Below are positions 29,940 through 41,308 of a stretch of DNA of 42,038 nt, piece after piece. How positions within the stretch are numbered: the stretch's first letter is position 1; each line of letters opens with the position of its first letter. The notes beneath the pieces are model-generated. The model made no database searches. It had not been told where the DNA came from and saw nothing but the letters and a program-made list of their open reading frames with translations. The translations under genes were made by a program, and so were the position numbers. Source of the DNA: Bacteroidota bacterium. Lineage in GTDB: Bacteria > Bacteroidota > Bacteroidia > Bacteroidales > JAGONC01. The stretch is taken from assembly GCA_026391695.1 (NCBI GenBank), contig JAPLDP010000029.1:1-42038 (forward strand). The letters are read 5' to 3'.

Positions 29940-31964
29940 TTATTTAGATTCTGCCCTGATAAAGAACATTTTCATCTTGCCTTTACCTTTTACCTCTATC
30001 TCTTCCCTTTCCTCGAATTTGAACTTATCTTTAACGAGGTTGTAGGTTACATCGGAAATATTGATCCGCATAGGTTCAGAGACATTTTCTATTCGGGAAG
30101 CAGTATTGATAGTATCACCAAAAACATCGTAAATGTATTTTTTAACTCCGACCACACCGGCAATTACAGGGCCGGAATGGATGCCCACACGAATCCGCCA
30201 GTCTATTTTTGATTCAAGGTTTTTCTTTTCCAAATATTGAATCATCTCCACGGCTGACCAAATGATATTTTCGGCATGTCGTGGATTTTCATCCGGCAAA
30301 CCGCAAACTGCCATATATGCATCACCAATGGTTTTTATGCGTTCACAATTATATTTCTCAATAATGGTATCAAATGCAGTAAAGATTTTATTCAATTCAT
30401 CAATAAGAAACTTTGGCTCCATTCTGGCAGCCAGTTCAGTAAAATCCACGATATCGGTAAAACAGACTGTAACGTTTTCATAGAGCTGTGGTTCTGTCTT
30501 GCCTTTCTCCTTCAGGTCAGTGGCAATGCCTGACGGTAGTATGTTCAATAACAATTTGTCAGATTTATCCTTCTCGCTGACAATGATCTCATTTGCTTTT
30601 CTTTTCTGGCGAAGGCTTAAATAAATGACAACAGCAAGCATGATAAGTAATGCGATACCACCTATCAGCGAATTTCGGAATATCCTGTCCTTTTTTATGG
30701 TCAGGGTCTGAATAACTTCTTTTTGTTGCAGTAATGTAATAACCCTATCCTTTTTTTCAGTTTCATATTTTACTTCAAAGTCAGTGATCTGTTTATGTAT
30801 TTCCTCACTATAAAGTGTATCCTTTATGTCCACATATTTTTTATAATAATTCAATGCTTCAGAATAATTCCCCATTGCAGCGTATAGATCGGAATACAAG
30901 AGGTAATTGGTTTTCAGCTGATCCTTAAGACTAATCTGGTCAGCAATTTTTGTACTCTGCGACAAATAACTGATGGATTGGTTATAAGCGCCCTTTACCT
31001 TGGAAATATCGGCCAGTGTTGCATAAACAGAAGCAAGATTAACAGGTCTATCCAGTTCCTGATAAATTCCAACAGCCAGCTGGAGGTATTGAATGGCCGC
31101 ATCATATCTCTGCTGCCCGAAGTAACAACTTCCCATATTCGCATTCAGAGTTGCAATCAGATCCTTGTTATTCTGTTCATTTGCCATTGTGTGAGCCATT
31201 TGGAAATATTCCAAAGCTTTGTCAAATTGTTTCTTATGTGAATAAGCCACTCCAATGTTATTCAGGCGGTTAGGGATCTCTCTTACTTTACCGAGTGCTC
31301 TGTCAATCGCCAATGCCTCTTCAATGAATTGTATGGCCTGGTCGAACTTTTCCCATTCTTTGTAAACCAAGCCAATATTGTTCAAAGAAATGGCCATACC
31401 TGCTGAGTCACCTAATTTTTCTTTGAGTTTTAAAGACCGTTCATAAAAGAGAATGGCAGTGTCATAGCGTCCCCAGGAATCATAAATAGAGCCAAGATTG
31501 TTCAGTGACTTTGCTATACTTTGGGTATCGCCCTGTTGCATATCCAATACAAGAGCTTTATTATAGTAGGCAACAGCACTGTCATAAGTTCCTAATTTTT
31601 TATAGGCCAGACCAATGTTATTATAGCGGGTGGCATAATTAGCCGGCACTTTAATTTTTCTGTCTTCCGAAAGGGCTCTTTCATACCATGTTATCGCCTC
31701 ATGATAATTATTCATCATGAAATAGCAAATCCCGATATTATTCAATGCTTCAGCGATTTTTTCCCTATCCGGTTCGCTCACAGTGTTTTCCTTTTGAAGA
31801 AATGAAAGGTACTTCTCGATGGCTTCGGAATATTTCCTTTGGTCAATTAATGCATAAGCCCTGTCATAATCAGTGAGCGTATCATTTTGAGCATTGGCTT
31901 TCAAGGTCAATACCACAATGACCAGAAAAAATGAGAATATGCCCAAAATCTTTAAAATCCTCAT
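29940..31964 (-). CDS. TPR-sensor class III adenylate cyclase
   Basis: A 674-residue membrane enzyme. A signal peptide (~1-25, ending KANA) is followed by about nine TPR units to ~380 (repeating NNIGLAYK..G.YD.A..YY.KAL), a coiled segment, one membrane span (431-451, NSLIGGIALLIMLAVVIYLSL) and a cytoplasmic class III cyclase domain (~495-670). Catalytic residues are present: metal-binding Asp504 (FTDIVDFT) and Asp548 (IKTIGDAYMA), adenine-selecting Lys544 and Asp613 (YDVFGD), and transition-state Asn620 and Arg624 (NTASR). This predicts cyclic AMP, not cyclic GMP, as product. The TPR region would be periplasmic and sense proteins or peptides. The gene stands alone between the MFS and PepE-like genes; no cAMP receptor is in the window. 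Confidence 0.93.
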   Translation of the reverse strand: MRILKILGIFSFFLVIVVLTLKANAQNDTLTDYDRAYALIDQRKYSEAIEKYLSFLQKENTVSEPDREKIAEALNNIGICYFMMNNYHEAITWYERALSEDRKIKVPANYATRYNNIGLAYKKLGTYDSAVAYYNKALVLDMQQGDTQSIAKSLNNLGSIYDSWGRYDTAILFYERSLKLKEKLGDSAGMAISLNNIGLVYKEWEKFDQAIQFIEEALAIDRALGKVREIPNRLNNIGVAYSHKKQFDKALEYFQMAHTMANEQNNKDLIATLNANMGSCYFGQQRYDAAIQYLQLAVGIYQELDRPVNLASVYATLADISKVKGAYNQSISYLSQSTKIADQISLKDQLKTNYLLYSDLYAAMGNYSEALNYYKKYVDIKDTLYSEEIHKQITDFEVKYETEKKDRVITLLQQKEVIQTLTIKKDRIFRNSLIGGIALLIMLAVVIYLSLRQKRKANEIIVSEKDKSDKLLLNILPSGIATDLKEKGKTEPQLYENVTVCFTDIVDFTELAARMEPKFLIDELNKIFTAFDTIIEKYNCERIKTIGDAYMAVCGLPDENPRHAENIIWSAVEMIQYLEKKNLESKIDWRIRVGIHSGPVIAGVVGVKKYIYDVFGDTINTASRIENVSEPMRINISDVTYNLVKDKFKFEEREEIEVKGKGKMKMFFIRAESK

Positions 31965-33015: not shown

Positions 33016-34068
33016 CTATCCTTTTTTAAGGGTGAATGAAAAGGTGGATCCCACACCTGGCTTGCTGCGCACATTAACCGTTTGCTCATGCGATTCAATG
33101 ATATGTTTTACGATGGCCAACCCTAAACCGGAGCCTCCCATGCCACGCGAACGGCTCTTATCCACCCTGTAAAAACGTTCGAAAAGTCGGGGTAGATGCC
33201 CGGCATCAATGCCAATGCCATTATCGGATACTTCAACCAGGATCTGCTCATCCATGTCATAAAAGCTCAACTTGGTCCGGCCACCCGTGTGCCCATATTT
33301 TATTGAATTATCGATCAGGTTAATCAAAACCTGCTTGATACGCTCCTTATCAGCCCAAACAAAAATGTGGGAATCTTTTGCGACTCCTGCCTGAAAAATC
33401 AGATGAATATCTTTTTGTTTTGCCTTATCTTCAAGTAACTCAAAAACATCATTAACAAGCGCTACTATATTGAACCGGGTATATTCTAACTTCAACATAT
33501 CTGACTCCAGCTGCGAAATAATCTCCAGGTCTTCCACAATGGTGATCATACGTTCAACATTCTTCGCCGTTTTATACAGATAGACCTTATTCACTTCGGG
33601 ATCAAGATATGCACCTTCGAGCAAGGTGAGGATATATCCCTGAATATTGAAGATCGGCGTTTTCAGCTCATGCGAGATATTACCTAAAAATTCCCTCCGG
33701 TAGGCTTCCATACTCTTCAGTTTTTCGATTTCCTCTCTTCGTTTCACAGCCCATTCCATGACTTCTTCATTGACAGTATGAATGATATCTTCCTTCAAAT
33801 CGACTTTTGCCACTTTCTCATCTTTTGAAAGCTTTAGTGTCCGGATGGTCTTATAAACCAACTTAATCCTGTCGTGTATATATTTTTTCAGAATAAAGGA
33901 AAATGTAAAGAAGGTCACCGCAAGTATGATGACTCCGGATAAACCGAATACGAGCCAGTGGATATGCTGATATACCAGAATGCTGATAATGGTATAAACA
34001 GCCAGATAAAATACCAGGATAACTGCCGAAGCAAGGAGAACAAGGTAGTATGGTTTTGACGGTCGCAT
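33016..34068 (-). CDS. phoR: PhoR-like sensor histidine kinase
   Basis: I start at ATG 34068 (MRPSKPYYLV); the alternative is a TTG at 34083 inside a repeat. The 350-residue protein has two N-terminal membrane spans (~7-32 and ~40-62) separated by only a few residues, so it has almost no periplasmic sensor, as in PhoR, which senses through the Pst transporter and PhoU. A dimerisation domain carries the phosphorylated His133 (NISHELKTPI). The ATP-binding domain shows the N box (INLIDNSIKYG), G1 (VSDNGIGID), F box (LFERFYRVDKSRS) and G2 (GGSGLGLAIVKHII). No PAS domain is evident. Its regulator is encoded just upstream and PhoU before that, which supports a phosphate role. Confidence 0.9.
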   Translation of the reverse strand: MRPSKPYYLVLLASAVILVFYLAVYTIISILVYQHIHWLVFGLSGVIILAVTFFTFSFILKKYIHDRIKLVYKTIRTLKLSKDEKVAKVDLKEDIIHTVNEEVMEWAVKRREEIEKLKSMEAYRREFLGNISHELKTPIFNIQGYILTLLEGAYLDPEVNKVYLYKTAKNVERMITIVEDLEIISQLESDMLKLEYTRFNIVALVNDVFELLEDKAKQKDIHLIFQAGVAKDSHIFVWADKERIKQVLINLIDNSIKYGHTGGRTKLSFYDMDEQILVEVSDNGIGIDAGHLPRLFERFYRVDKSRSRGMGGSGLGLAIVKHIIESHEQTVNVRSKPGVGSTFSFTLKKG

Positions 34069-34080
34069 AAATTCAATTAT

Positions 34081-34170
34081 CAATGATCAAGGATCAATGA
34101 TCAATAAAAAAAATACAACCAACTGATCATTGATCATTGTTCATTGATCATTGTTCATTGATCATTGTTC
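34081..34170. repeat. TGATCATTGTTCAT tandem repeat with inverted arm between regulator and kinase
   Basis: Full 14-bp copies start at 34131 and 34145, with partial copies at 34124 and 34159. An inverted arm (CAATGATCAAGGATCAATGATCA) occupies 34081-34103, so the 78-bp gap can fold into a long hairpin. The array includes the last codons and TGA of the regulator gene. It may affect how much kinase is made relative to regulator. Confidence 0.8.
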
Positions 34171-34848
34171 GTATTTGTATCCAACTCCCTTAATGGTTAC
34201 AATATTGTCTGTGCCCAGTTTTTCACGGATCTTCCTTATGTAAACGTCAATGGTACGTTCACCGACAATAATATCATCACCCCATATTCTGGCATATATT
34301 TCTTCGCGTGTGAACACCCTGTTGGGTTTGGAAACCAATAGGGCAAGAAGTTCAAATTCTTTTTTGGGCAGCGTGAATGACCTGCTTTTAAAATGGACCT
34401 CGTATGCCTCGCGATCAATTATCAGGTCGTCCGCAGAGGAGCCTGTTTCCGGCTTTTCATCAGATATCCTGTAGCGACGCAGCAACGCCGCTACCTTGCT
34501 TATTAGTAAACGGGGCTTGATGGGTTTGGTGATGTAATCATCAGCACCGGCGTCAAATCCGGCAATCTGGGAGTAATCTTCACTCCTGGCGGTAAAGTAA
34601 GTGATGACGGTATTTTTAAGCAGTTCGATATCTCTCATCTCCCGGCATGTTTCAATGCCATCCATTCCGGGCATCATGATATCGAGGATGATCAACTGCG
34701 GCACATGTTGCCGTGCAAGCGTTACAGCTTCGTCACCATTGCCGGCAGTAATCACCTGGTATCCCTCCTTGCGCAGATTATAACCTACAAACTCCAGTAT
34801 ATCTTCTTCATCATCAACAATAAGTATTTTAATATCACTATTGGTCAT
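34162..34848 (-). CDS. phoB: PhoB-like response regulator (OmpR family)
   Basis: A 228-residue transcription factor: receiver domain (1-~120) with acidic pocket DDEED (12-16), phosphorylated Asp56 (LIILDIMMPGMDG), Thr86 (FTARSED) and Lys108 (DDYITKPI), followed by an OmpR/PhoB winged helix (~130-228: VHFKSRSFTLPKKEFELLALLVSKPNRVFTREEIYARIWG...RTIDVYIRKIREKLG...IKGVGYKYE). Members bind tandem direct repeats as head-to-tail dimers, which fits the 11-bp TTAA repeats before pstS and the porin. The gene lies between phoU and phoR on the same strand, so the phosphate assignment rests on both sequence class and context. The ATG is at 34846-34848. Confidence 0.92.
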   Translation of the reverse strand: MTNSDIKILIVDDEEDILEFVGYNLRKEGYQVITAGNGDEAVTLARQHVPQLIILDIMMPGMDGIETCREMRDIELLKNTVITYFTARSEDYSQIAGFDAGADDYITKPIKPRLLISKVAALLRRYRISDEKPETGSSADDLIIDREAYEVHFKSRSFTLPKKEFELLALLVSKPNRVFTREEIYARIWGDDIIVGERTIDVYIRKIREKLGTDNIVTIKGVGYKYEQ

Positions 34849-35000: not shown

Positions 35001-35672
35001 CTACACCTTGTTCTTGTGTTTCTTATGCCGCAGCACTTTGGCTTCCAGGTAAAAAATAATCTCCTCCGATATATTTTTGGTATGATCTCCTACCCTTTCA
35101 ATTTTACGTATGGCGATTAGTAAGTTGAGATGATTTATTATGCCCTCAGGATTTTGTTTGATGATACTCGCAATGTTACCAACGGCATTTTTATTACTGT
35201 TATCCAGTAAATGATCCCTTGTGAATACATTTCTGGCAAGGCGGTTGTCTTCATTTTCAAAAGCAGTCAAAGCTTCTTTCAGCATATCGATGCCGGCATC
35301 AATGATATCCGGCAGATTTGTCTTTTCAAGATGCTCTTTTTCAAACGGTTGTGTACTTTCTTTGACGATTTTTGCCAGTCCCCATGCAAAATCGCCAATG
35401 CGTTCAAGATTATAGTTTATTTTAAGCACAGCCAGTACAAACCTGAGATCATTGGCAAGAGGATTGAATAAAGCCAGGAGGTTCTCGCAGTCCATATCAA
35501 TTTTCAGCTCAAAGGCATCGATAAGCTTTTCTGTTGATGCCATTTCCGCAATGATATCCTTATTAAAGTTTTCAACGGCATCACGGGCCCTGGCAAGCTG
35601 ACTGATGACCAGTTCCCACTCGTCGATGATATCCGACTTTAATATTTTCAATTCAGTATTGAGATGCGTCAT
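35001..35672 (-). CDS. phoU: Phosphate-signalling regulator PhoU
   Basis: A 223-residue all-helical protein built of two three-helix bundles. Family signs are the helix-1/2 text ARDAVENFNKDIIAEM, DCENLLALFNPLANDLRFVLAVLKINYNLERIGDFAWGLAKI (first metal-binding-type E/D cluster) and the equivalent in the second half, HLNLLIAIRKIERVGDHTKNISEEIIFYLEA. PhoU links the Pst transporter to the PhoR kinase and shuts the Pho response off when phosphate is plentiful. The tail KVLRHKKHKNKV is basic. It follows pstB after 64 bp and precedes the phoB-phoR pair, as in typical pst-phoU operons. Complete and standard in length. Confidence 0.94.
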   Translation of the reverse strand: MTHLNTELKILKSDIIDEWELVISQLARARDAVENFNKDIIAEMASTEKLIDAFELKIDMDCENLLALFNPLANDLRFVLAVLKINYNLERIGDFAWGLAKIVKESTQPFEKEHLEKTNLPDIIDAGIDMLKEALTAFENEDNRLARNVFTRDHLLDNSNKNAVGNIASIIKQNPEGIINHLNLLIAIRKIERVGDHTKNISEEIIFYLEAKVLRHKKHKNKV

Positions 35673-35736: not shown

Positions 35737-36495
35737 TCAACCGAACTTACCCGTAACGTAATTTTGTGTTTTTATATCTTTCGGATTTGTAAAAATAGTT
35801 TTTGTTACATCCCATTCAACCAGTTCACCCAGGTAGAAAAAAGCAGTATAATCGCTAACGCGGCCTGCTTGCTGCATATTATGTGTCACGATGATAATCG
35901 TATAGTTTTTCTTTAATTCATAAATCAGGTCCTCGATCTTACCCGTCGATATCGGATCCAAAGCCGAGGCAGGCTCATCCATGAGTACCAGCGATGGCTC
36001 AATGGCCAGTGCACGGGCAATACAGAGCCTTTGCTGCTGTCCTCCTGAAAGATCCATAGCCGATTTTTTCAGGTTGTCCTTTACCTCTTCCCACAACGCT
36101 GCCTGCTTTATTGAGTCAACTACCTTCTCCTCAATATAATGCCGGTCATTCATGCCGTTTACCCGCAGCCCAAAGGCCACATTCTCAAAAATCGACTTTG
36201 GAAAGGGATTCGGTTTCTGAAACACCATGCCGACTTTCTTGCGCAATTCATCCACTCTGATGTTTTTATCATATACATCCAGTCCGTCGACAAAGGCACT
36301 TCCGGTTGTCGTGACACCATGAATCAGGTCGTTCATGCGGTTAAAGACACGCAAAAGTGTCGATTTCCCGCATCCCGACGGGCCAATGAACGCTGTGATG
36401 GTATTCGCCATGGCCGTGAAGTTGATATTCTTCAATGCCTGGAATTCATCATAGTATAAATTTAAATCCTTTACTTCTACTTTATATTCTGACAT
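35737..36495 (-). CDS. pstB: Phosphate ABC transporter ATPase PstB
   Basis: A 252-residue ATPase with Walker [10 protein letters not shown] (38-46), the PstB-specific Q-loop [27 protein letters not shown], signature [16 protein letters not shown] (148-163), Walker [14 protein letters not shown] and the H-loop [29 protein letters not shown]. The motif 'QKPNPFP' and the ending [11 protein letters not shown] are diagnostic for PstB. It energises PstC/PstA. It starts 12 bp after pstA and is clearly in the same operon. Confidence 0.98.
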
Positions 36496-36507: not shown

Positions 36508-37356
36508 TTACTTTTTTCTGGAGCGGTATGACCTGATGAAGTTGACTGATAAATTTGCGATCAATACCATTGCAATGAGAACAAGCGCGGTACCATAAGC
36601 CATAGGCCTCGACTTTTCGATATTTGTCCCGCTGGTCGTCAGGACATAAAGGTGATACGGTAAAGCCATCACCTGGTCGAAAATGCTATGAGGCAATCTG
36701 GGTAAAAAATATGCTGCTACAGTAAAGAGAATGGGCGCCGTCTCACCCGAAACCCTTCCGATTGATAAAATCAACCCCGTCAGAATGTTAGGAAATGCAA
36801 CCGGTAAGACGACTTTTCTTACGGTATACAGTTTTGTAGCTCCGAGTGCATAACTGCCGATGCGCAAGCCATCATCCACCGACTTGAGGGCTTCTTCGGT
36901 GGTACGTATAATGACCGGTAAAACCATCAAACCAAGGGTAAGGGAGCCCGCAATGATGGAATCGCCGAATTTCAGCGTGTTAACAAACAAAGCCATGCCA
37001 AACAGCCCGAAAACAATCGAAGGAATACCTGCCAGGTTATTGGTCATCGAACGCATGAATTTCTTCAGAAAAGTCTCACGGAGATACTCATTAATATAAA
37101 TACCTGACAACACACCTACCGGAAAAGCAAAGATCATACTGCCTGCAACCAGGCAAAGGGTTCCGACAATAGCCGGGAGAATTCCGCCTTCAGTCATGCC
37201 CTCTTTTGGCATAGAGGTGAGGAAGGTCCAGTTTACAGCCGAAATACCATGGATTACAATGAAGCCCAAAATAATAAAAAGGACAGCCACAACCATCAGG
37301 CTGATTATCCTGAAGGTGTTAAATGCTATGGCCTGTGTTAGCTGTTTCTTGGTCAT
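36508..37356 (-). CDS. pstA: Phosphate ABC transporter permease PstA
   Basis: A 282-residue inner-membrane permease with six spans. The segment WTFLTSMPKEGMTEGGILPAIVGTLCLVAGSMIFAFPVGVLSGIYINEY is typical of PstA, and the EAA loop is RTTEEALKSVDDGLRIGSYALGATKLYTVRKVVLPVAFPNILTG, which meets PstB. The end, PYHLYVLTTSGTN...YGTALVLIAMVLIANLSVNFIRSYRSRKK, is also standard. It pairs with PstC, whose gene it overlaps by 4 bp (37353-37356), a sign of translational coupling. Confidence 0.97.
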   Translation of the reverse strand: MTKKQLTQAIAFNTFRIISLMVVAVLFIILGFIVIHGISAVNWTFLTSMPKEGMTEGGILPAIVGTLCLVAGSMIFAFPVGVLSGIYINEYLRETFLKKFMRSMTNNLAGIPSIVFGLFGMALFVNTLKFGDSIIAGSLTLGLMVLPVIIRTTEEALKSVDDGLRIGSYALGATKLYTVRKVVLPVAFPNILTGLILSIGRVSGETAPILFTVAAYFLPRLPHSIFDQVMALPYHLYVLTTSGTNIEKSRPMAYGTALVLIAMVLIANLSVNFIRSYRSRKK

Positions 37357-38543
37357 CTCTTTGCTTTTACCAGTTCGACTAACGAATTAAAAACAAAAGT
37401 TATAATAAAAAGGATGATGCCTAAGGCAAACAAAGCTTTGAAGTGGGTGCTGCCAAAGGGTGCCTCACCAAGCTCTGCGGCAATGGTGGCAGGGATCGTC
37501 CTGACAGGTTGTAAAAACGATGACGGGATCACCGAAGCATTGCCGGTGACCATTAATACGGCCATGGTCTCCCCCACTGCCCGTCCTATTCCAAGAATGG
37601 CTGCGGCTGTTATGCCTGATATTGAATGAGGTATAATGACCCGTCTGATAGTCTGCCATTTGGAAGCGCCTAAGGCAAGGCTGGCTTCTTTAAGGGATAC
37701 AGGCGTTGTACGTAGAGCATCCTCCGTGATCGTTATGATCGTCGGCAATGCCATGATAGCCAGGATAACACTGCCTGCCAGGGCCGTTTCACCGACAGGC
37801 AGGTTAAAAGTTTTCTGAATAAGAGGGACAAGCACCACGAGGCCGAAAAAACCATATACAACTGAAGGGATGCCCGACAATAATTCAATGACAGGCTTTA
37901 AGATATTACGGAAACGGTTGCCTGCCACTTCAGCCATGTATATTGCAGTCACCAGTCCTATTGGCAGTGCAAGCGCTATTGCTCCCAGGGTAACCCACAG
38001 TGTACCGAGGATGAGCGGTAGTACTCCATATAATGCAACAGGAGAGGCCGTGGGATACCATTGCTGGCCGGTCAAAAATTCACCGACACTGATTTTATGG
38101 ACAGGGATTATTTTCCATCTGAAGTTCCCGGTTATATAAGCCTTGGAAATATAAGCGAAAACTCCGGTATGTTGCTGCACAAAATCATTGATACGCTGGG
38201 GCAGATACTCGAAATTCGCACCAAGTTCCTCTTCAGAATAATAATTACCTATTTCTGAAATGGTAAGCAGGATAATGCTGTCATTATTACCACCCAGTGT
38301 TTTCCAGTTTGTGATGTCCTGGTTAAATATATCCTTTAAATGACGCGCACTTAACTGGTTAATTGGATTATCCTGGTTTACAACGATTTCATAGTTATTT
38401 TCGACCGGACGGCTGTTAAATATACCCAGCCCTTCCCTGAAAAGAAACAAAATAATAAAAAGCACGGTTATTGTTGTAACCGTGCTGCTGCTGAATAGGA
38501 TGCCTACTGCGACTTTTTCTGAAATTCTCCGGTATTTTTTCAA
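37353..38543 (-). CDS. pstC: Phosphate ABC transporter permease PstC with a PstS-like periplasmic insert
   Basis: A 396-residue permease, longer than the ~300-340 typical for PstC. After TM1 (~13-38) comes an insert of ~100 residues (50-150) that strongly resembles one lobe of PstS: VVNQDNPINQLSARHLKDIF (54-73) with ITNWKTLGGNND (77-88) matches PstS residues 110-143, and QQHTGVFAYISKAYITGN (123-140) matches the PstS segment TAGAIGYIGLAYINKD. The phosphate-binding RESSSGT stretch of PstS is replaced by ISEIGNYYSEEEL. The standard PstC core resumes at GEFLTGQQWYPTASPVALYG, with the EAA loop EDALRTTPVSLKEASLALGASKWQTIRRVIIPHSISG. Start codon: TTG (38541-38543), as no in-frame ATG precedes the conserved part. 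A neighbouring 195-bp repeat-rich gap separates it from pstS. Confidence 0.95.
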   Translation of the reverse strand: MKKYRRISEKVAVGILFSSSTVTTITVLFIILFLFREGLGIFNSRPVENNYEIVVNQDNPINQLSARHLKDIFNQDITNWKTLGGNNDSIILLTISEIGNYYSEEELGANFEYLPQRINDFVQQHTGVFAYISKAYITGNFRWKIIPVHKISVGEFLTGQQWYPTASPVALYGVLPLILGTLWVTLGAIALALPIGLVTAIYMAEVAGNRFRNILKPVIELLSGIPSVVYGFFGLVVLVPLIQKTFNLPVGETALAGSVILAIMALPTIITITEDALRTTPVSLKEASLALGASKWQTIRRVIIPHSISGITAAAILGIGRAVGETMAVLMVTGNASVIPSSFLQPVRTIPATIAAELGEAPFGSTHFKALFALGIILFIITFVFNSLVELVKAKR

Positions 38544-38738: not shown

Positions 38739-39569
38739 TCACTTTATTGGCACATACCCTTCCTCATGAACGATTTTCTGTCCGTCGGCCGATAAAATAA
38801 AATCAACGTATGGCTTAACCGTCTTTTCAATTGATGTTAAGTAATAATAATACAAAGGCCTTGTAATAGGATATGTTTTATTTTTTGCTGTTTCGACTGC
38901 CGGAGCGACATAGGTCTTCCCCTGGTCATAAGACACCTTTAAAGCCTTAACGTCCTTATTGATATAAGCCAGTCCGATATAACCAATAGCACCGGCCGTC
39001 TGGCTGACCGACTGGACGATGGCGCCTGTGGCAGGCATCAATAAGGCCGTTGTTGCAAAATTCTTCTTATTGAGTACATGCTCTTTAAAGAATTCAAATG
39101 TACCTGAGCTCGACTCGCGCGAGTAAGCAATGATTTTCATATCGTCACCACCCACTTCTTTCCAGTTTGTGACCTTACCGGTAAAAATATCCTCCAGTTG
39201 TTCCCTGGTAAGTTGATTCACCTTATTGGCAGGATTGACGACGACGGCCAGTGCATCATAGGCGATGATGACTTCCTTAAAGGCCTTGCCGGCATCCTGC
39301 AGTTTGATTTTCTCGTCGAGCTTCATCTTGCGCGATGATTGCGCAATGTCGGTAGTCCCGCTTAACAATGCTGCCAGACCGACACCCGAGCCACCGCCAA
39401 CAACAGAAATGGATGATCCCGGGTTCTTTTGCATGTAAACCTCAGCTTCTTTCTGCGAAAGAGGCAAACAGGTGTCACTTCCTTTGATTTTACATACGAC
39501 CCTTTGCGCCTGAACAAGTGCAGGTACCGCAAAAGCTATGACTGATAAGGCAATGATGATCTTTTTCAT
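38739..39569 (-). CDS. pstS: Phosphate-binding protein PstS
   Basis: A 276-residue periplasmic binding protein; the signal peptide ends at VQAQ (~21), and there is no lipobox. Phosphate-site segments are IKGSDTCLPL, GGGSGVGLAALLSGTTDIAQSSR (58-80) and IAYSRESSSGTFEFF (147-161). The second-lobe text VVVNPANKVNQLTREQLEDIFTGKVTNWKEVGG and TAGAIGYIGLAYI is the part echoed inside PstC. It supplies phosphate to PstCAB. A likely Pho box lies 38 bp before the ATG. The usual order pstS-pstC-pstA-pstB-phoU is kept, with a repeat-filled gap after pstS that may allow extra PstS production. Confidence 0.97.
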   Translation of the reverse strand: MKKIIIALSVIAFAVPALVQAQRVVCKIKGSDTCLPLSQKEAEVYMQKNPGSSISVVGGGSGVGLAALLSGTTDIAQSSRKMKLDEKIKLQDAGKAFKEVIIAYDALAVVVNPANKVNQLTREQLEDIFTGKVTNWKEVGGDDMKIIAYSRESSSGTFEFFKEHVLNKKNFATTALLMPATGAIVQSVSQTAGAIGYIGLAYINKDVKALKVSYDQGKTYVAPAVETAKNKTYPITRPLYYYYLTSIEKTVKPYVDFILSADGQKIVHEEGYVPIK

Positions 39570-39606
39570 AATCTATTTAAATTTTAGTGCGAAATAACAA
39601 TTTGTG

Positions 39607-39645
39607 TATTAACTGATTTTTAAGTCAATATTAATTTACTGTTAA
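39607..39645 (-). promoter_or_regulatory. Candidate Pho box before pstS: four TTAA repeats at 11-bp spacing
   Basis: Read on the minus strand: TTAACA (39645-39640), TTAATA (39634-39629), TTAAAA (39623-39618) and TTAATA (39612-39607), each separated by exactly 5 bp (11-bp period). PhoB/PhoP-type regulators bind tandem direct repeats with 11-bp spacing, and Bacillus PhoP uses TTAACA-like units, so this fits the PhoB-like regulator encoded nearby. The last unit is 37 bp from the pstS ATG. A core promoter after the box is not obvious. Confidence 0.65.
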
Positions 39646-39666
39646 GAAAGTTGGGTAAAATTCATT

Positions 39667-41115
39667 TTAGAATTTGTATTGTAACCTCAGAGTAAAGACA
39701 TTATCTTTTATATCACCTGCAAAATCTTTTAATGGGCTCTTGTTGGTTATTGCGCTTGTTGATTCGTTTTTTACGATATCATAATATGCGGTTAATTTAA
39801 CATTGCTGTTCCAGCGGAAAGCCCAACCAATACCAATGGTCGAATATTTAATATCCGTCGACGAAGTTGGTTTTGCTCCTTTGGGTAAGGATTTCGCATT
39901 TGCACCAATGTCATTTCCTGAAACGTCAGTATTCGGATCATACCAGTCATATTTAAAGATGAACTGATGTCGTGTCTGAAAGATGTTCTGAACCAGGTAG
40001 AAATAGAATCCATCTAATTTCCGTCTGTAGGCATCGGAGCTCACCGCAGCGTTTGCTACAGTGGTATAACCGGTGATGGCTCCGGTGGTATCATAGATGG
40101 CGGTTGTCGCGTATGGAACTGAAGGATTCTGTGTTGGCTGGGCAGTAGCACTGGTCGTAGTCGAAGAAGTACCCGGCTGTGTACCCATGATAAATTCCCC
40201 GCGTATCTGTGTCATGCCAAATGGGAAATCAAAGGCAAACTGTGCATCAACCCCAAAATATTCTCTTTTCAGCATGTCACCTATCGCTGAACCTGCTGAG
40301 TCCACCACAAACGCCTTCATTGTACCGCCCTCCTTCAAAGTGACATCCTTCATTGAATAGTTAAATTTTGTTGCTTGTTTCCAGCCACCATAATAATAGG
40401 ATACTCCAACCCCATACTTGATGTTCTCCTTTTTGTTGCTTTTCACAATCGCCAATCGTCCGATAAAGTCCTTATATTTATCGAAATCGACTGCCGTATT
40501 GCCGGTGCCATTTATGAGCGCCAGATCGAGCGATATAAAATTATACTTTGACGTTTTTGGAGGCTGAATGGTCAATTTGGCACCCAGGTCTCTTTCACCA
40601 GGAAAAAGAGTCTGCACGAATCTGGAACGCTCAGGTGATTCCCTTATACTGGACGAATAGACAATTTCATATCCGAAAGGACGGTTAAAAACACCACCGG
40701 TCAAAGTAAAATACTTTGTCCACGGATCCGTAAAACTTGCATAGGCGTCCTTAATAGCGACACCTCTTTCAGTCACATCCAATTGCAAAACATATTGCGA
40801 CCAATCATTATCATACGTAAACTTAACACGTCCACGTCGCACCGAAAAACGGTTATCGACATCTGCCGTGAAATTTCCACCGGCAAATGACGGGATGCCT
40901 GCTTGTTCGGCCTTCTGCCATTGCGCCTGGATATAACCTGATATTTTCAGCCGTTTCAGAACGGTCAGGTCCGATTTGACCTGCTCAACAGCCGGTGTAA
41001 GTGTATCGGCCTTTTGCTCATCATTCACCTGTGCTGCGGCAGGTAAAATTCCGGCCATAATTAATAGAATGATGCCAAAGAAATAAAATTTGGATTGTGT
41101 GATTTTCTTTTTCAT
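39667..41115 (-). CDS. Phosphate-selective porin (OprO/OprP-like)
   Basis: A 482-residue outer-membrane protein; the signal peptide ends around LPAAAQ (~29). A short coiled segment (~31-52) precedes the barrel, which has the family's N-terminal signs: LKISGYIQAQWQ, FSVRRGRVKFTYDNDWSQYVLQLD and AYASFTDPWTKYFTLTGGVFNRPFGYEIVYSS, with RESPERS and LFPGERDLGAKLT after. OprO/OprP-type porins select phosphate or polyphosphate. The barrel ends with the aromatic FTLRLQYKF. Residues ~305-345 form a Ser/Thr-rich loop (GTSSTTTSATAQPTQNPS). It is first in the phosphate block, and TTAA-type 11-bp repeats stand upstream, suggesting control by the PhoB-like protein. In other Bacteroidota this family is also used for other anions, so selectivity is inferred mainly from context. 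Confidence 0.9.
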   Translation of the reverse strand: MKKKITQSKFYFFGIILLIMAGILPAAAQVNDEQKADTLTPAVEQVKSDLTVLKRLKISGYIQAQWQKAEQAGIPSFAGGNFTADVDNRFSVRRGRVKFTYDNDWSQYVLQLDVTERGVAIKDAYASFTDPWTKYFTLTGGVFNRPFGYEIVYSSSIRESPERSRFVQTLFPGERDLGAKLTIQPPKTSKYNFISLDLALINGTGNTAVDFDKYKDFIGRLAIVKSNKKENIKYGVGVSYYYGGWKQATKFNYSMKDVTLKEGGTMKAFVVDSAGSAIGDMLKREYFGVDAQFAFDFPFGMTQIRGEFIMGTQPGTSSTTTSATAQPTQNPSVPYATTAIYDTTGAITGYTTVANAAVSSDAYRRKLDGFYFYLVQNIFQTRHQFIFKYDWYDPNTDVSGNDIGANAKSLPKGAKPTSSTDIKYSTIGIGWAFRWNSNVKLTAYYDIVKNESTSAITNKSPLKDFAGDIKDNVFTLRLQYKF

Positions 41116-41140: not shown

Positions 41141-41200
41141 CCCCGGACTTTAGTCCGGGGTAAGCAAATGACAACCAATTTATTACCGGACTTTAGTCCG
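41141..41200. repeat. Two GGACTTTAGTCC palindromes before the porin gene
   Basis: CCCCGGAC-TTTA-GTCCGGGG (41141-41160) and CGGAC-TTTA-GTCCG (41187-41200) share the same core and loop. They lie between the candidate Pho box and the porin ATG, so they would be in the 5' untranslated RNA if transcription starts near the box. They may be RNA-stabilising hairpins or mobile palindromes; no T-run is seen on the minus strand. Confidence 0.75.
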
Positions 41201-41253
41201 TTAATTTTTAAAATATGCGCGATATTTTAATCGCTGCAAAGTACCTGTGTTAA

Positions 41254-41281
41254 TGTTAATTGAATATTAATTGAACGTAAA
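41254..41281 (-). promoter_or_regulatory. Candidate Pho box before the porin gene
   Basis: On the minus strand: TTTACG (41281-41276), TTAATA (41270-41265) and TTAACA (41259-41254) at exact 11-bp spacing. The latter two match units of the pstS site. TTTG (part of TACTTTGCAG) follows downstream and could be the -33 box, with TATTTTAA 21 bp later as an imperfect -7. The site is ~140 bp before the porin ATG. It is weaker than the pstS array, having only two good units. Confidence 0.5.
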
Positions 41282-41308
41282 GAAATGGTGAAGATTCCTG
41301 TCTATTAG

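Follow-up and report, generated by a model that had tools for sequence, protein, structure and literature searches.

A predicted PHO-box operator of 11-bp direct repeats before pstS in a Bacteroidota genome

The region upstream of pstS in the Bacteroidota genome analyzed here carries four hexamers in direct repeat at an exact period of 11 bp. Judged by its sequence, its position and the genes found behind similar sites, this array is very likely a PHO-box-type operator. It lies within a window of 42,038 nucleotides, by which we mean the whole stretch of DNA that was analyzed, in a genome of 3,633,986 bases and 95 contigs. The minus-strand gene order is porin, pstS, pstC, pstA, pstB, phoU, response regulator and histidine kinase (Table 1). 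A preliminary description of the same DNA had reported the four hexamers, and they were confirmed on the minus strand as TTAACA (39645-39640), TTAATA (39634-39629), TTAAAA (39623-39618) and TTAATA (39612-39607). Read towards pstS, the full array is TTAACA GTAAA TTAATA TTGAC TTAAAA ATCAG TTAATA. A gap of 97 bp (39570-39666) separates the stop of the porin gene from the start of pstS and contains the array, whose last unit ends 37 bp upstream of the pstS start. The window holds one box before pstS and one before the porin gene; the latter, a predicted operator of the porin gene's own, had not been mentioned before.

Table 1. Predicted operator and promoter elements and genes of the pst block in the window.
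Feature	Position	Strand	Basis or remark
Predicted PHO-box array before pstS	39607..39645	minus	Four units, 11-bp period; top R1 match genome-wide, E 3.3e-4
Weak -7-like element TTATTTCG, pstS promoter	39590..39597	minus	Sequence read against the phase-lock spacing
Second, weaker predicted PHO-box array, before porin	41254..41292	minus	TTCACC, TTTACG, TTAATA, TTAACA; second R1 match genome-wide, E 1.8e-3
-7-like element GTACTTTG, porin promoter	41237..41244	minus	TTTG in the phase-locked place
Porin	39667..41115	minus	Without a Pfam/NCBIfam match of its own at E<=0.001; homologue (58% identical, other genome) matches Porin_O_P
pstS, phosphate-binding protein	38739..39569	minus	TIGR02136, 258.6 bits, above cut-off of 206.6
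pstC with PstS-like insert	37353..38543	minus	TIGR02138 above cut-off; PF12849 at residues 49-91, below gathering score
pstA	36508..37356	minus	TIGR00974 above cut-off
pstB	35737..36495	minus	TIGR00972 above cut-off
phoU	35001..35672	minus	TIGR02135 above cut-off
OmpR-family response regulator, PhoB-like; proposed to bind the boxes	34162..34848	minus	PF00072 and PF00486
PhoR-like histidine kinase (HisKA and HATPase_c)	33016..34083	minus	TIGR02966, 239 bits, below cut-off of 334.2

The regularity of the array exceeds what chance would give, as had been claimed from the window. Exact matches to TTAAHA(N5)TTAAHA(N5)TTAAHA were confined to the array itself (2 overlapping matches in the whole genome), and the reversed pattern, used as a control, had 0 exact matches genome-wide. 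Within the window, three TTAANA(N5) units with at most two mismatches were matched 6 times against 0.33 expected, a number reached by none of 100 shuffles. Genome-wide, the TTAA triple pattern with two mismatches had 53 matches vs 72 for the reversed control; the bare pattern is unspecific at this level, and it is therefore the exactness of the array that constitutes the signal.

We analyzed 93 pstS loci, made up of the window, the best 12 pstS matches from other genomes in a set of 60 belonging to the window's order, and 80 named loci (the best 80 of 325). A recognizable porin was found upstream of pstS in 60 of the 93. Up to 300 bp of DNA was scanned before pstS (93 regions) and likewise before the porin gene (50 regions). 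Regions in the TTAA pair count were cut at the porin end where one was found and may otherwise include coding DNA, with redundancy kept. In these 143 regions two TTAA words were 11 bp apart 65 times and 22 bp apart 31 times, against 1-18 times at each other distance from 4 to 47. TTAACA pairs were found 16 times with a distance of 11 bp and 6 times with 22 bp, while every other distance occurred 0-3 times. In both counts the word was preset while the spacing was left free. An EM repeat model seeded with TTAACA was fitted at periods of 9 to 13 to 114 non-redundant regions, 29 of the 143 having been dropped as redundant or shorter than 45 bp. It was coherent only at period 11, where the unit is KTAACA(W4)Y, and nothing similar emerged at 9, 10, 12 or 13. 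Of the TTAAnA repeat proposed earlier, the 11-bp period thus recurs before pstS and porin genes of relatives, whereas KTAACA replaces TTAAnA as the general unit.

Two-fold cross-validation against dinucleotide shuffles gave 42 of 47 porin-upstream regions at p<=0.05 (2.4 expected), 38 of them at p<=0.01, and 42 of 67 pstS-upstream regions at p<=0.05 (3.4 expected), with 34 at p<=0.01. At least one region at p<=0.01 was found for 62 of 85 loci, so that conservation before pstS or the adjacent porin gene is evident in many related genomes, though not in all. In many relatives the main box is located before the porin gene, the porin being the first gene. The window was included in the pair counts, the EM model, the cross-validation, the TTTG spacing and the box alignment, and was excluded from model R1 described below.

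A feature absent from the preliminary description is a phase-lock between the array and the -7 element of the promoter. Among 86 array-bearing regions, 76 of the 97 TTTG words found downstream at offsets 1-99 fell in one of the eleven possible phases, a fixed short spacing to the core promoter. With offsets counted from unit 1 of the three-unit array that was scored, 21 of these words were at offset 41 and 34 were at 52, and the phase-locked TTTG follows the start of the third or a fourth unit by 19 bp. The longer word TAnnTTTG, which we take to be the -7 element of Bacteroidota with TTTG as its conserved end, was in place in full in 23 cases (9 at offset 37 and 14 at offset 48). Alignment of 54 boxes on TTTG gave TTAACAWTWTY KTAACA N5 KTAANA N5 GTAACA N9 TAnYTTTGCA. 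Since the array is phase-locked to TTTG, it occupies the place of the -33 element. In the pstS promoter of the window, TTATTTCG begins 15 bp beyond the point where the last unit starts, which is precisely the place predicted for TAnnTTTG, and it matches that word poorly. The word TAnnTTTG also appears in a B. fragilis paper (PMC4747536).

A sequence-only model, R1, was built from 43 boxes of other genomes. The 54 aligned fragments were reduced to 48 in named loci and then to 43, L079, L084, L117, L128 and L129 being left out by no fixed rule. The TTTG columns of R1 are invariant by construction, because only fragments that have TTTG at offset 41 or 52 had been selected. The control, R2, consisted of the same 43 sequences read backwards and hence had equal composition and information. 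In the window's genome R1 ranked the pstS array first and the porin array second, while the next match had an E-value of 0.22; 150 of 2070 first-look candidates were scored in this search, and the E-values of the models are rough. Among the downstream reading frames listed for the next 16 R1 matches in this genome (E from 0.22), no phosphate gene was recognized by eye. Only two boxes stand out, so the regulon in this genome looks tiny or its other sites are weaker.

In the 80 named pstS loci R1 found 101 matches at E<=0.1 and R2 found 2. At E<=0.01, 74 of 85 R1 matches were located within 2.2 kb upstream of pstS on the same strand, which corresponds to 8.9% of the bases searched. All 34 training loci matched, as they must. 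An upstream box at E<=0.01 was present in 23 of 46 held-out loci, or in 22 of the 40 whose upstream DNA covers 1.6 kb or more; half of the held-out loci had no such box, so some pstS genes lack a box or carry a diverged one. Among the held-out loci that matched are those of Rufibacter, Sabulibacter and Adhaeribacter, genera that do not belong to Bacteroidales; one Rufibacter was in the training set.

The 60 genomes of the order were searched with both models, 92 candidates being scored per genome. Among the matches listed, those of R1 numbered 35 at E<=0.001 (22 genomes) and 76 at E<=0.01, with 9 and 12, respectively, upstream of a PstS match; those of R2 numbered 3 and 7, none upstream of PstS. 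The window itself accounts for two of these 12, and the box sequence of at least G022 recurs in the training locus L062. The upstream test used 53 of 64 PstS matches, the 11 omitted being short or weak and mostly located in the neighboring pstC. At E<=0.3 matches were listed for 57 of 60 genomes with R1 and 51 of 60 with R2; the two models are similar at this level, so only strong sites carry information.

The best R1 sites of 29 other genomes were followed by a downstream reading frame in 24 cases under a fixed rule, and 14 of these 24 genes encode phosphate functions or PhoB-like regulators: 5 PHO4 (PiT) transporters, 1 Na/Pi cotransporter, 3 PBP_like_2 (PstS-type) proteins, 2 porins (1 by homology) and 3 response regulators. 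The other 10 comprise 2 TonB receptors, 3 small CarboxypepD_reg proteins, a metallophosphoesterase, a SulP transporter and 3 others. Under the same rule the 30 R2 sites gave 14 downstream frames, none of which encodes a phosphate protein or a response regulator according to Pfam. Strong sites are thus found in excess before phosphate-acquisition genes rather than equally before unrelated ones, and together with the conservation before orthologues this supports the earlier suggestion that the array is the (predicted) operator used by this lineage.

The small CarboxypepD_reg proteins (119-133 aa) are encoded directly behind strong boxes in L171, L176 and L196 and have N-termini that look secreted; they are candidate new members of the Pho regulon. 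TonB-dependent receptors with a CarboxypepD_reg domain are located behind strong boxes in L170 and L192, and perhaps serve in the uptake of phosphorus compounds. For F. johnsoniae, passages of PMC8115612 report that in Pi depletion a TonB receptor of a 'PhoBR operon' cluster is strongly induced and an OprP of that cluster is not; these data fit the R1 regulon in part.

The domain models settle the fold of the linked regulator, which has a receiver and a winged-helix domain and is encoded with pst genes, phoU and a PhoR-like kinase. It scored 211.8 with TIGR02154 (PhoB; cut-off 296.2) and 201.6 with NF053854 (Bacteroidota PhoB; cut-off 270), and is nevertheless the best NF053854 match in its own genome. 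It lies below both PhoB cut-offs, so it is PhoB-like by score, while its identity comes from gene context and phylogeny; the PhoB-like regulator noted earlier in the block is upheld in its domains and pst linkage and falls short of PhoB proper in its scores. Relatives at E<=1e-60 were found in 38 of the 60 genomes, mostly without a PhoU, PstB or PstS match within about 1.5 kb on either side. In a tree whose bootstrap had not settled, the window's regulator grouped (support 95/94) with the pst-linked regulators of L061, L063, L067 and L275 and the unlinked one of L230. The window's genome encodes four further full-length PhoB-like regulators with 172-186 bits (G000:C64:20947-21609, C42:69677-70348, C89:42131-42796 and C71:21520-22182).

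Boxes with a matrix score above 15 were present directly before the regulator gene in L077, L095, L250, L251, L252, L261, L264, L269, L273 and L191, of which L191 and the L273 site had been found with R1 itself. Such boxes are as expected of autoregulation; none was found directly before the regulator gene of the window.

We consider it probable that this putative binder, and not another protein, recognizes the boxes. The best-surviving alternative is a real operator bound by a different OmpR-family regulator, either ArcA-like or a PhoB-like paralogue, with the linked regulator merely nearby. The reverse complement of TTAACA-N5 is N5-TGTTAA, which the ArcA repeats of E. coli resemble, and the DAP-seq motif of PhoP from Riemerella anatipestifer has been called ArcA-like in passages of PMC9603813; the unlinked relatives and the four paralogues add further candidates. 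Against these stand the phosphate genes downstream of the boxes, the boxes directly before PhoB-like regulators in several genomes, and the linked regulator's rank in its own genome, its place beside phoU and pst and its grouping with pst-linked regulators. A different binder is on this evidence unlikely. Still less can be said for phased A/T tracts that bend the DNA, or an UP element, acting with no specific regulator. The repeats are indeed A/T-rich, about one helical turn apart and directly upstream of promoters, but their conserved core, KTAACA, is not an A tract: it includes an invariant preference for C, allows G or T at one position and is directional. In addition, the reversed model of identical composition finds next to nothing where R1 finds its matches, and the sites are concentrated at phosphate genes; this explanation is very improbable. 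A chance arrangement in A/T-rich intergenic DNA, in whose favor it can be said that the reversed control matches no less often than the bare pattern when two mismatches are allowed, deserves almost no credence and is refuted by the uniqueness of the exact array, its first rank in 3.63 Mb with a model that excludes the window, the excess of R1 over R2 and the conservation before orthologues.

The boxes were also compared with the regulators that the box-bearing genomes encode. A regulator above the NF053854 cut-off was encoded in 21 of 58 box-bearing genomes searched; none was found in the other 37, many of which are drafts, so that absence there is no proof. Of 57 boxed loci 48 entered the comparison (L062, L073, L079, L101, L104, L109, L115, L119 and L124 were left out). 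L105 was then left out, as were L076, L113 and L136, which could not be classified, and L033, L037 and the window were added. This gave 26 boxes from 18 loci with an NF053854-type regulator and 35 boxes from 29 loci that have none. G002, G028 and G030, although over the cut-off, contributed no boxes. The first letter of unit 2 was G in 22 of 26 boxes with an NF053854-type regulator and in 2 of 35 without (T in 4 vs 26, A in 0 vs 7; Fisher's test on G/T, 5.9e-9), a comparison that was made post hoc with the boxes already seen and with statistics that ignore kinship. Unit 4 also differed (p 0.0046), while units 1 and 3 displayed no clear difference (p 0.065 and 0.79). For units 2 and 3 taken together, the difference persisted at G+C contents of 28-38% and 38-46% and was weaker above 46% (5 and 3 boxes); the bands take in 25 of the 26 and 34 of the 35 boxes. 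It may reflect one or few events.

The two groups of regulators also differ in the recognition helix, at positions 200 and 201 of E. coli PhoB, which presumably face the DNA and are Arg and Arg in the E. coli protein. NF053854-type regulators have Thr at the first in 19 of 21 and Arg at the second in 21 of 21. Window-type regulators linked to pst or to a box have Arg200 and Lys201 in 17 of 17 readable cases of 18, one gene being counted twice, and unlinked ones have Arg200 in 38 of 38 and Lys201 in 37 of 38 readable cases of 40. We infer that these residues may cause the difference in the boxes. Bacteroidota may thus share one PHO-box architecture with two dialects, each of which evolved together with its own PhoB lineage, a joint reading for and against which we hold the chances to be evenly balanced. 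Its G dialect would be TTAAC-GTAACA with a degenerate third unit, used with NF053854-type PhoB (mostly Thr200, with Arg201), and its T dialect would be TTAACA-TTAACA, used with the window-type regulator (Arg200 and Lys201) where no NF053854-type regulator was found. If this is true, regulator replacement kept the promoter geometry and re-tuned the operator, and the two dialects are a natural experiment on the joint change of response regulator and operator.

PHO boxes are described in passages of PMC4415409 as direct repeats of 11 nt whose consensus differs by species. The array has this 11-bp organization, as do the units bound by E. coli PhoB (PMC4415409), and the E. coli box is likewise located directly upstream of a -10 element, according to PMC1906773. 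PhoB of E. coli is a winged-helix regulator of the same family with the pst operon among its targets. The array is not an E. coli PHO box in the strict sense, the unit being KTAACA rather than CTGTCAT and up to four units being present. The E. coli box is coupled to TATAAT and the array to TAnnTTTG, with 15 bp from unit start to element start here vs about 18 bp in E. coli (derived from an 8-bp repeat plus 10 bp). In Bacillus subtilis the PhoP box consists of TTAACA-like direct repeats of about 11 bp, in another phylum and with another promoter type. The 11-nt organization is similar in the Bacillus box (PMC4415409). Cyanobacterial SphR boxes look at least as close to the array as those of Bacillus. 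The SphR box is given in passages of PMC1906773 as CTTAACCT with 3-bp linkers and shares with the array the 11-bp period, the TTAAC core, the presence of at least three units and the position before pst genes; its unit ends in CCT rather than CA, and promoter context and phylum differ.

For Bacteroidota we found no PHO-box consensus or spacing in the openly licensed literature searched, save the related TTTAACA motif of Riemerella. There, passages of PMC9603813 give TTTAACA as the most conserved letters of the DAP-seq motif of a PhoP-type regulator. It is compared there with ArcA and with virulence genes, these passages state neither a period nor a spacing, and neither 'pstS' nor 'porin' occurs anywhere in the main text (PMC9603813). 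PhoB of B. fragilis is required for pstC expression and binds the pstC promoter in EMSA, as stated in passages of PMC3547664 that give no sequence for the site. To judge from the model name, it presumably belongs to the other, NF053854 lineage.

A mechanism may be proposed. During low phosphate, the PhoR-like kinase would phosphorylate the PhoB-like regulator, which would then bind the 11-bp direct repeats head to tail and, from the place of the -33 element, could recruit RNA polymerase to TAnnTTTG, the -7 element. This would switch on pstS together with the pst genes that follow, and the second box would do the same for the porin gene. Members of Bacteroidota figure prominently in gut, soil and marine communities, and phosphate stress matters to these bacteria. 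With a consensus and an exact promoter spacing, Pho regulons become predictable from sequence, and reporter and footprint studies have a concrete target.

Several minor observations were made in and around the block. The PstS-like stretch in PstC (PF12849, residues 49-91, E 1.6e-5) precedes the permease domain, and in several relatives the PstS query matched again directly downstream of pstS. The PhoR-like kinase, which scored below the PhoR model cut-offs, had HisKA and HATPase_c alone in Pfam at E<=0.001, and neither a PAS nor another sensor domain was found at that threshold. On the minus strand at 29940-31964 a TPR-like repeat protein is encoded, the C-terminal part of which resembles adenylate/guanylate cyclase when the translation is judged by eye. 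The stretch that leads from the porin box to the start of the porin gene has two copies of the perfect palindrome CGGACTTTAGTCCG, at 41144-41157 and 41187-41200, which could form leader hairpins, and CGGACTWWAGTCCG has just one further exact site in the window's genome.
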